Of a stretch of 29,903 nucleotides of DNA, positions 292 to 29,765 are shown piece by piece. The position numbers and the translations under genes were made by a program. The DNA is taken from the IMG/VR virus record IMGVR_UViG_3300046804_004097, positions 1 to 29,903 of that record; one strand, 5' to 3'. Under the pieces are notes generated by a model. That model did no database searches. It saw nothing but the letters and a program-made list of their open reading frames with translations, and had not been told where the DNA came from. Position 1 is the stretch's first letter. Each line of letters starts with the position of its first letter. This DNA comes from a virus.

Positions 292-1062
292 TTATATTTT
301 TACGGTGAGTCGTTGCGATTCTTGACTCCATTGGTAAGCGGATTCTAAGTCAACTGGACGATATCTAGCGTTAGCTATTCTTCTTTCGTTGTGATACTGC
401 CTTCTTCTTTGTTCTTTATCTCCTAGAGTCCCTTTGCGGCTATTAGGAAGCATAGCGATATCATTGTAAGCAATGTACCACATCAATGCAGTCTTGAATT
501 GAATAGGAATATAATACTCTTCGCCTTGCTTTGGAGTAGCTATATATTCAAGCATCACATAATCATATCCAAAATTTTCACTTAAAAGCAAAACTCCGTT
601 GTGATTATCTATTTTAAAGTTTCCGATAAATGGCGAACCAGACGGGATGCCATATAAAGTAGAAAAAGCACCATTGTTCCAATAATTATACCATATAGGC
701 GTATTGAATTGAATGATATCTATGATTGTATTGTCTTGTGTTTGAGCCAATCGGTTTGGCTGCAAGTCGGCATATGTAGTCAAATTGCTATTATATCCCA
801 TTGGGATTATTTCGCCTACACTATTTAATACTCCTACTTTTGAATAATTAAGATAATCATCTGGAAGAGAAACCGTAAGATTTGAAAGTACAGGAAGTTT
901 AACTGATTTTATTTGATAGAAAAAATCAAGACCCATTTCCTCCATTCCAGAAAAAGCTAATTGCCAACACTTATAATATTTGTGCGCACTTTGTTCTGAA
1001 CGATCTAAATATAAATTCACCACAGTATCTAATGATACATATTGCTGGTGTGTGTTGCTCAT
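292..1062 (-). CDS. Putative head-tail connector / neck structural protein, 256 aa
   Basis: A soluble protein with no signal peptide or membrane helix. The N-terminal third is helical (SLDTVVNLYLDRSEQ, then YKCWQLAFSGMEEMG). The middle is rich in beta segments and aromatic residues, and the C-terminus is basic and helical (DKEQRRRQYHNERRIANARYR). A helix, beta domain, helix layout is common in ring or gatekeeper proteins between portal and tail in podovirus-like Bacteroidota phages. The assignment rests on this layout and on position between the co-chaperonin and the tail protein, so the exact role is inferred. Its leader shares a 24-base repeat with the capsid gene, which suggests high translation, as expected for a virion component. 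Confidence 0.55.
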   Translation of the reverse strand: MSNTHQQYVSLDTVVNLYLDRSEQSAHKYYKCWQLAFSGMEEMGLDFFYQIKSVKLPVLSNLTVSLPDDYLNYSKVGVLNSVGEIIPMGYNSNLTTYADLQPNRLAQTQDNTIIDIIQFNTPIWYNYWNNGAFSTLYGIPSGSPFIGNFKIDNHNGVLLLSENFGYDYVMLEYIATPKQGEEYYIPIQFKTALMWYIAYNDIAMLPNSRKGTLGDKEQRRRQYHNERRIANARYRPVDLESAYQWSQESQRLTVKI

Positions 1063-27980: not shown

Positions 27981-28483
27981 TGTTTAGGTTGTTTAAGTGA
28001 TTGGATAATTTCTTTTGTTGTGTATTTAAAGCCAAATATTCCATCTCTTGCCATATCTATTGCTTCCCAAACTTGTTCATCTGTATATAGAGTTTCTTTG
28101 GCTTTGTTGTAACCTTTTTTAAAGCCATGTCTTAAAGTATTTGTGTGATGATTTTGGTGGTTATCAATGTTACTATCAATTAAATATGGAAATTCTTGTT
28201 CAGCCAACTTTTCAACATCATCTTCTACCGATTGAATATGTCCCATAGGCGCATCCATCCATTCTTGTTCTTCATCTGATATTTTATCAACATCGTTATT
28301 GATTATTTTGGCATAAGTACAACCTTTGCCATCATCATAGGTTTCAGTTACTATCTCAAACTCTACTCCCATGCCATTCATACCATTTACCACACTATAA
28401 AAATTTTTAGGATGTAATGGTAAAAAAGAAGTACCGTAAGTAACTACCCATCCTTGTTCTGTTTTAGTTAATGTTCCTTTCAT
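27977..28483 (-). CDS. Phage protein with repeated 'DEEQEWMDAPMGHI' module and SLKQPKQ tail, 168 aa
   Basis: The N-terminal domain LTKTEQGWVVTYGTSFLPLHPKNF is a short beta module that I remember from gut and aquatic phage proteins. It is followed by an acidic block VDKISDEEQEWMDAPMGHIQS (near 87-107), whose DNA is repeated at 28982-29040. A His-rich stretch (NHQNHHTNTLRHGF) and a helix (TDEQVWEAIDMARDGIFGF) end in IIQSLKQPKQ. It seems a mosaic of three shuffled modules. The function is unknown. Confidence 0.65.
   Translation of the reverse strand: MKGTLTKTEQGWVVTYGTSFLPLHPKNFYSVVNGMNGMGVEFEIVTETYDDGKGCTYAKIINNDVDKISDEEQEWMDAPMGHIQSVEDDVEKLAEQEFPYLIDSNIDNHQNHHTNTLRHGFKKGYNKAKETLYTDEQVWEAIDMARDGIFGFKYTTKEIIQSLKQPKQ
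27978..27999 (-). repeat. Gene-junction repeat type 2, copy 3
   Basis: Encodes the end LKQPKQ-stop of the 168-aa gene and the start codon of the next. It shares the CTTAAACAACCTAAA core with copies 1 and 2. Confidence 0.65.
28236..28294 (-). repeat. Internal 59-base coding repeat, copy A
   Basis: 59 bases matching 28982-29040 with three differences, within the 168-aa gene. It encodes DKISDEEQEWMDAPMGHI. Copies lie 746 bases apart in different genes. Confidence 0.85.
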
Positions 28484-28938: not shown

Positions 28939-28970
28939 AATTAATCTTTTTTAGGTAGTTTTAAGTGATT
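28936..28970 (-). repeat. Gene-junction repeat type 2, copy 4 (tail frameshifted)
   Basis: The tail of the 111-aa gene reads QSLKTT-stop. Removing one A from its A-run would instead give QSLKLPKKD-stop, very close to the KQPKK tails of neighbours. This supports a recent one-base insertion in a once longer shared tail. Confidence 0.6.
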
Positions 28971-29286
28971 GTTGGGATTTTATATGACCCATAGGTGCAT
29001 CCATCCATTCTTGTTCTTCATCTGATATTTTATCAGCATCATAACCTAATTTTGGCACATCCTCATTACCTAATTTATCTACATAGGTTTCTTGATAGTA
29101 TTGTTCTCCTGTTATAAATGGTTTTTTGTCTACAGCCATATCAACACCATCTCTATTTGCTTTTATTATCTCTTGCTTATGTAATTGCTTGGCTTGTAGC
29201 AGATACTTCTGCCACTCCAATACATTTGGCTCTGCGTTAAGTAGTTGTTGTGCTAACCATTCTACCGATGTCTGTTTGTTGCTCAT
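28951..29286 (-). CDS. Phage protein with repeated 'DEEQEWMDAPMGHI' module, 111 aa, frameshifted tail
   Basis: The start MSNKQTSVEWLAQQLLNAEP and the central helix WQKYLLQAKQLHKQEIIKANRDG are followed by GEQYYQETYVDKLG and DADKISDEEQEWMDAPMGHIKSQQSLKTT. The 'SVEWL..QL' and 'GEQYY.ETY' blocks are usual in small phage proteins of this group, by memory. The last 25 residues repeat the module of the 168-aa protein. The end appears shortened by a frameshift (see the repeat at 28936). It is the first gene downstream of the operator-like palindrome and terminator. Confidence 0.7.
   Translation of the reverse strand: MSNKQTSVEWLAQQLLNAEPNVLEWQKYLLQAKQLHKQEIIKANRDGVDMAVDKKPFITGEQYYQETYVDKLGNEDVPKLGYDADKISDEEQEWMDAPMGHIKSQQSLKTT
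28982..29040 (-). repeat. Internal 59-base coding repeat, copy B
   Basis: Partner of 28236-28294, three differences in 59 bases. It lies at the 3' end of the 111-aa gene, in frame. Confidence 0.85.
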
Positions 29287-29327
29287 AATTTTAGATTTTT
29301 GATAATCAAAGTATTTTGTTGTTAATG

Positions 29328-29348
29328 GATATCACAATATGTGATATC
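29328..29348. promoter_or_regulatory. Palindromic operator-like site GATATCAC-N5-GTGATATC
   Basis: Perfect 8-base arms with a 5-base spacer, 42 bases upstream of the 111-aa gene and just past the terminator. A near-promoter TACTTTG (29307-29313) follows downstream on the minus strand. This arrangement suits a repressor site controlling the early operon. The regulator is unknown; the Cro/XRE-like protein at 23502 is a candidate only. Confidence 0.6.
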
Positions 29349-29354
29349 AAGTTT

Positions 29355-29392
29355 AAAAAATGGTAGTTTTTCTATCACCACCTGAACTACCA
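29355..29392 (-). terminator. Intrinsic terminator (minus strand)
   Basis: The minus strand gives TGGTAGTT, a 16-base loop, AACTACCA and then TTTTTT: an 8-bp stem with a T-run. It ends the transcript covering 29393-29903 before the operator-like site. It separates the GC-rich RNA candidate from the downstream operon. Confidence 0.78.
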
Positions 29393-29500
29393 AAACAGTG
29401 CCTACCAACGATTAGGAAGTACCTTTGCAGCTGTGCAGGACATGAAGTCCATTCTGAGAGCTGTTACTTGTCTTTCGATTCCCTGCGCCACGGGACTAAT
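29393..29500 (-). ncRNA. Candidate structured non-coding RNA
   Basis: This stretch has no convincing gene and has about 47% GC, against roughly one third in the flanks. It carries nested complementary pieces (plus-strand coordinates): AAGTA 29417-29421 with TACTT 29465-29469, CAGCT 29428-29432 with AGCTG 29459-29463, and GGAC 29438-29441 with GTCC 29447-29450. Two more short stems are CCTA 29401-29404/TAGG 29413-29416 and CCC 29481-29483/GGG 29492-29494. The terminator at 29355-29392 follows on the minus strand, fixing the likely strand. It does not fold as a tRNA. The assignment is inference from composition and pairing. Confidence 0.5.
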
Positions 29501-29504
29501 TAGT

Positions 29505-29765
29505 TTACACTACCAAATCATCAAGCTCAACACATTTGTCTTTTAGTATTTCCCAATACCGCTGATACATCATATCAACTATATTATAGATATCCTCTTT
29601 TGTTACCTCATCAGGCAACATTTCTACCTGACTATAAATCTTCTTCTTAGTATTATACATTATTTCCCATAACGCTAAGCATACATCTAACGACTTAACA
29701 GCTCTCATGTGAGCCATCTGCTCATCGCTATCGTTTAGATCAAATGTTATTGTGGCTTGTGGCAT
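29505..29765 (-). CDS. Small conserved phage protein, 86 aa
   Basis: An all-helical acidic protein: TFDLNDSDEQMAHMRAVKSLDVCLALWEIMYNTKKKIYSQ, then DEVTKEDIYNIVDMMYQRYWEILKDKCVELDDLV. The block 'DLND.DE.MAH.RA.KSLD.CLALWEI.YN.KKK' is a frequent Bacteroidota phage pattern, by memory. The function is unknown. It lies directly upstream (in transcription) of the RNA candidate, and its stop is 5 bases from that stretch. Confidence 0.7.
   Translation of the reverse strand: MPQATITFDLNDSDEQMAHMRAVKSLDVCLALWEIMYNTKKKIYSQVEMLPDEVTKEDIYNIVDMMYQRYWEILKDKCVELDDLVV

Follow-up and report, generated by a model that had tools for sequence, protein, structure and literature searches.

A conserved pseudoknotted RNA predicted in a phage genome and its probable movement between phages

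Judged by covariation among its homologues, a genuine structured RNA of about 150 nt (~148) is encoded on the minus strand at positions 29355-29502 of the window, by which we mean all of the DNA analyzed, a linear viral record that is 29,903 bases long. The predicted fold consists of a hairpin (P1), a linker, a two-part arm (P2-P3), another hairpin (P4), and then a 3' H-type pseudoknot made of P5 and a short helix. As far as the searches described below reach, the RNA family is undescribed and has no Rfam entry. We slightly favor the view that it is a trans-acting phage ncRNA, a module of a mobile RNA-gene island and a small counterpart of GOLLD and ROOL, with a cis-acting leader as the main rival and second choice.

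The minus strand carries nearly all of the large ORFs of the window. The terminase, portal and primase match phage families, and the nearest named relatives of the terminase are Flavobacterium, Cellulophaga, Tenacibaculum and Maribacter phages, at less than 30% identity among the matches listed, suggesting that the window most likely comes from a tailed phage that infects Bacteroidota. An earlier note on this DNA had described positions 29393-29500 as a GC-rich stretch free of genes, and this description was accurate. The stretch is flanked by two minus-strand ORFs (29505-29765 and 28951-29286) with no gene between them, and its GC content is 48.1% compared to 32.8% for the whole window, a level reached by 0.6% of 108-nt windows. 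The conserved element is larger than the stretch in the earlier note and covers about 29355-29502. The upstream gene (29505-29765, minus strand) encodes 86 aa and has homologues in G014 and G029. The downstream gene (28951-29286, minus strand) encodes a 111-aa member of a small protein family, "SIEWL", and this protein gave no significant match in Pfam or PHROGs. Two repeats were also seen on this side of the element. A 65-nt direct repeat, 92% identical, lies inside two neighboring ORFs (28230-28294 and 28976-29040) and is a sign of a recent duplication of a gene segment. Between the terminator described below and the next gene there is a perfect 9-bp inverted repeat, GATATCACA/TGTGATATC (29328-29348), which is a possible operator.

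Read 5' to 3' on the minus strand, the RNA begins with a conserved UAAYYAG (29496-29502), as placed by alignment A3 and the ORF coordinates. P1 (29480-29495) is a UCCC/GGGA hairpin with the loop GUGGCGCA. Five different fully paired P1 stems occur among the 7 sequences, 4/4 pairs are changed on both sides, and the loops hold GG and a short palindrome in all members. The single-stranded linker that follows, AUCGAAAGACAAGUAA in the window (29464-29479), is conserved in alignment A3 as AUCGAAAG between P1 and P2-P3. The next arm (29428-29463) is supported by covariation, with P2 as the outer stem (CAGCU/AGCUG) and P3 as the inner helix (GGAC/GUCC), both of which show C-G to G-C switches. The internal loop of this arm, CUCAGAAU/UGCAC, is invariant in 7/7 sequences and was itself part of a search pattern. 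Since the patterns fixed parts of the P2-P3 core, the invariance of the core is partly an artefact of the search; P1, P4, P5 and the pseudoknot were in no pattern. P4 (29401-29416) is a CCUA/UAGG hairpin, with 3/4 pairs changed on both sides and a conserved loop, AUCGUUGG, in which AUCGU is the constant element.

P5 (29361-29392; inverted repeat I4), with the strands UGGUAGUU/AACUACCA, is an 8-bp stem with a 16-nt loop in the window, and 4/6 of its conserved pairs are changed on both sides. It forms the second helix of the pseudoknot, and a U6 tract (29355-29360) follows directly on its 3' side. The 8-bp stem and U6, at -7.9 kcal/mol, have the form of an intrinsic terminator, and P5 doubles as one in the window. 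A simple terminator scan, with a loop limit of 8, missed this site because of its 16-nt loop; when the scan was widened, no more than three sites of this kind appeared on the minus strand of the window. The earlier note was therefore right that a minus-strand intrinsic terminator exists but wrong to place it inside 29393-29500, as it lies just beyond, at 29355-29392.

The remaining helix, of three pairs, came from an alignment-wide search for further helices. It joins bases just 5' of P5 to the first bases of the P5 loop; in the window CUG at 29396-29398 pairs with CAG at 29382-29384. All three pairs are changed on both sides (3/3) and pairing is 100%, with the qualification that this helix was chosen among many candidate pairings, which makes its own shuffle count optimistic. 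A clean double change between the window and one homologue (L016) is, by alignment, stronger evidence for the pseudoknot than the shuffle count. The window has CUG/CAG and L016 has CAG/CUG, with U replaced by A on one side and A by U on the other, and from P4 up to where the P5 loop begins the two otherwise hardly differ.

The nested complementary segments that the earlier note saw at 29393-29500 do exist. However, their single-sequence folding energy is ordinary, with z scores of +1.65 for 29393-29500 and -0.76 for 29320-29504; folding of the single sequence was no better than that of shuffled DNA and was discarded as uninformative. The covariance check that the earlier note had proposed gave a clear result. 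With five helices and 7 distinct sequences, falling into roughly three similarity groups, 98.8% of the cells are paired and 14/23 pairs are changed on both sides; with the pseudoknot added, these values are 98.9% and 17/26. The observed covariation was reached by 0/500 shuffles, and all slid controls collapsed. A functional RNA is thus indicated by structure that is kept in homologues while the letters change. The conclusion of the earlier note, a functional phage RNA, holds on this ground, whereas GC content and folding energy did not serve as indicators of it.

Two further interactions were considered and set aside. A pairing of the P1 loop with the region before P5 is allowed by some of the sequences only. 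The P5 loop of the window and L022, CAGGUGGUGAU, resembles the complement of the 16S 3' tail, and the other family members do not keep CAGGUGGUGAU. The palindromes in the P1 loops (GGCC, GCGC, GUGCAC) suggest that kissing dimers may form, although the palindromes may be due to chance.

Homologues were found at six other distinct phage loci (L002, L016, L018, L019, L022 and L048), and a further copy, L020, is identical to L002 across the RNA region. L002 entered through a search for relatives with the downstream protein of the window, and comparison of its DNA with that of the window revealed an RNA homologue whose stems had changed in step on both strands. Conserved-core patterns found L016, L018, L019, L020, L022 and L048, the last being the sole new member from relaxed and extra pattern scans, which gave none beyond it. 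A covariance model built from six sequences recovered L048, which was outside its training set, at 110 bits (E 2e-23). The match of the covariance model in the window spans 29356-29506, and model R1 scores this copy at 158.6 bits, the window being among the R1 training sequences. Matches of about 20 bits in G017 and G018 and of 24 bits in L073 and L081 were rejected, as loops and stems are not kept together. A blastn search against named phages returned chance matches only (E 0.04 or worse), one of which sits in a coding gene, and both matches from a scan of a genome collection were also due to chance. The named isolates elemoF, immuto, phi19:3, Panino and others contain no copy of the RNA. 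In agreement with the statement in the earlier note that no known class is recognized, Rfam 15, whose families include GOLLD, ROOL, tRNA, tmRNA and known ribozymes, gave no family at or above the gathering score across the whole window, and permissive Rfam scans of three copies (window, L183, L048) gave chance matches or none. ARAGORN calls no tRNA in the window, and there is no Rfam tRNA match.

The RNA starts at, or within a few bases of, the stop codon of an upstream gene in 5/7 loci. The conserved 5' UAA is itself that stop codon in L002, L018, L022 and L048, and in the window the upstream stop lies a few nt further upstream; no gene ends at the 5' end of the RNA in L016 and L019. On the 3' side, tRNA or tRNA-like genes adjoin the RNA in 4/7 loci. 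In L048 it is followed directly by tRNA-Gln, a tRNA-Leu-like gene and tRNA-Glu, and in L002, L018 and L019 by tRNA-like sequences with paired acceptor ends that are not called by ARAGORN. The copies in the window, L016 and L022 have no tRNA or tRNA-like gene near them. In L022 another stem, with its own U-tract, lies 3' of the RNA; the L022 copy of the RNA itself has no U-tract, and neither has the L048 copy. The P5 U-tract occurs only in the window and L016, the copies with no RNA gene behind them, and this pattern fits a module whose 3' end would be set by whatever comes next.

Other RNA-like sequences were noticed in these neighborhoods. Four degenerate tRNA-like sequences (L180:3851-3920, L183:1268-1345, L002:1513-1596 and L182:3618-3700) have AGUCAGG acceptor strands and abnormal arms, and only the first is called by ARAGORN, with no readable anticodon. 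Downstream of the tRNA cluster of L048, a sequence read by eye (560-1060, minus strand) resembles an intron that interrupts an RNA gene, and an HNH-type ORF follows it. A second candidate RNA element is common to two phages (L184:5120-5195 and L180:4115-4238, minus strand in L180). It has a stem GCCCAUUU ... AAAUGGGU around ACCAAAUAAGG / UUGGUGUCCUU and then a U-rich tail, and its inner insert differs between the two phages.

The distribution of the RNA was compared with the relatedness of its carriers. The RNA is absent from 79 terminase relatives of the window phage, including L100/G029, whose terminase is 94% identical, although L100/G029 and most of the other relatives are contig fragments and some absences may be due to incompleteness. 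G029 keeps a homologue of the upstream gene without the RNA, and at that place it has a different stem and a short tRNA. This tRNA (L180:4059-4118, minus strand; Rfam, 44 bits) is 60 nt long and appears to lack a normal anticodon arm. The RNAs of the window and L022 are 79% identical and the two have one ORF in common, and the RNAs of L018 and L019 are 91% identical while their shared proteins average 40% identity. In the related phages G017 and G018, which share 27 ORFs, the RNAs are only 70% identical. The similarity of the RNA does not track protein similarity or phage relatedness and, together with its absence from the closest relatives, this suggests that the RNA probably moves horizontally between phages.

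The ordinary folding energy and the 29-codon ORF at 29402-29491 would agree with a gap that is GC-rich by chance or with a small coding sequence that was overlooked. This explanation is refuted by the covariation across homologues and is left with a negligible likelihood. Stop codons occur in nearly every frame of nearly every homologue, and single-base gaps and indels separate the homologues, so that the conservation of one coding frame, which the earlier note had named as evidence against an RNA, was not seen. In the trans-acting reading, the RNA would be transcribed together with the upstream gene, and its 3' end would be freed by termination at P5 or, as adjacency suggests, by processing of the next tRNA-like RNA. 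It would then persist as a stable compact molecule and, as one part of an RNA-gene island passed horizontally between phages, would act in trans during infection on some factor of the host or the phage. Another possible explanation, though a doubtful one, is that the pseudoknotted RNA is a cis-acting leader of the small-protein gene downstream. It would regulate the transcription or translation of that gene by working as a riboswitch, an attenuator, or a processive antitermination element directed at the terminators behind it. The main support for a leader is that a SIEWL-family member is the next family-sized gene downstream in 5/7 loci and the only member detected in 4 of those 5 contigs, a linkage that a cis regulator would produce. 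The window (the query) and L002 (found by its protein) are not independent in this count, whereas only the RNA pattern led to L018, L019 and L022. The U-tract of P5 in the window and L016 also agrees with a leader. However, the SIEWL-family gene lies at a variable distance of 70 to 340 nt from the RNA, and the intervening DNA holds tRNA-like genes and terminator-like hairpins of its own; in L048 three tRNA genes come after the RNA, and in L016 a different gene does. Also, the SIEWL family is present in 13 contigs without the RNA, in most of which its gene sits in an ordinary gene run and has hardly any gap, or none, upstream, and the alignment showed no conserved alternative pairing able to free P5.

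In several loci the RNA lies after a stop codon and before tRNA-like genes, and this placement, along with the compact pseudoknotted fold and invariant internal loops, could instead point to an RNA-processing element or a self-cleaving ribozyme that parts the upstream mRNA from the tRNA island behind it. We consider this unlikely, as no Rfam ribozyme family was matched at permissive thresholds and there is no tRNA for the copies in the window and L016 to set free. The RNA might also be the partner of the adjacent small protein in a type III-like toxin-antitoxin or counter-defence pair, given the order RNA, terminator, small ORF in the window and L022 and the linkage in 5/7 loci. A type III system is expected to have tandem repeats upstream of a ToxN-like nuclease, but this RNA has no repeated units, the protein has no significant Pfam or PHROGs match, and its family often occurs without the RNA, which makes such a pair very improbable. 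By analogy with the tRNA-like structures of plant viruses, the RNA could be a stand-alone tRNA mimic, in which three hairpins, among them P1 with the constant GG of its loop and P4 with the constant AUCGU, and a pseudoknotted 3' arm would imitate the tRNA elbow and acceptor. In infected Bacteroidota such a mimic would engage a factor that normally binds tRNA, either as a decoy or as a ligand, a quite unlikely proposal. Candidate targets would be a synthetase, RNase P or a defence enzyme that cuts tRNAs, and the RNA would travel between unrelated phages with tRNA-like modules.

The family is supported by covariation, has no Rfam entry and is small enough for structure work. Its distribution suggests that RNA genes are swapped between phages having almost no proteins in common. 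The stand-alone RNA modules of phage tRNA islands mostly lack a known job, and a compact 150-nt member would make this question testable. The wider phage groups have isolates, such as the Flavobacterium elemo and immuto phages, and those examined lack the RNA.

Several known RNAs resemble the element in part. RNAs C and D from the tRNA cluster of phage T4 are small, stable, non-tRNA RNAs made with the phage tRNAs. The element resembles them in this description, and to our knowledge they have no covariation-defined family or horizontal spread. Viral tRNA-like structures of the TYMV type have a series of hairpins and then a 3' pseudoknot, and the loop just ahead of the pseudoknot contains UCG. 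The element shares this layout, and its P1 loop keeps GG like a D-loop; unlike the TYMV type, it has no conserved CCA end, constant anticodon-like loop or Rfam match. The manA and wcaG motifs are structured RNAs carried by phages and have been proposed as cis regulators (PMC2864571). They occur in cyanophages and are linked to metabolic genes, whereas the element precedes a small uncharacterized protein, often with RNA genes between. GOLLD and ROOL are structured ncRNAs of phages and prophages, often near tRNA islands, and no protein partner is known for ROOL (PMC12286853). They are hundreds of nt long with other structures, whereas the element is about 150 nt long with a 3' H-type pseudoknot, and both its size and the sequence-structure comparison (Rfam 15) place it outside them. 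GOLLD and ROOL are nevertheless the closest kind, being likewise phage-encoded and near tRNA genes, the latter here in L048, L002, L018 and L019 only.
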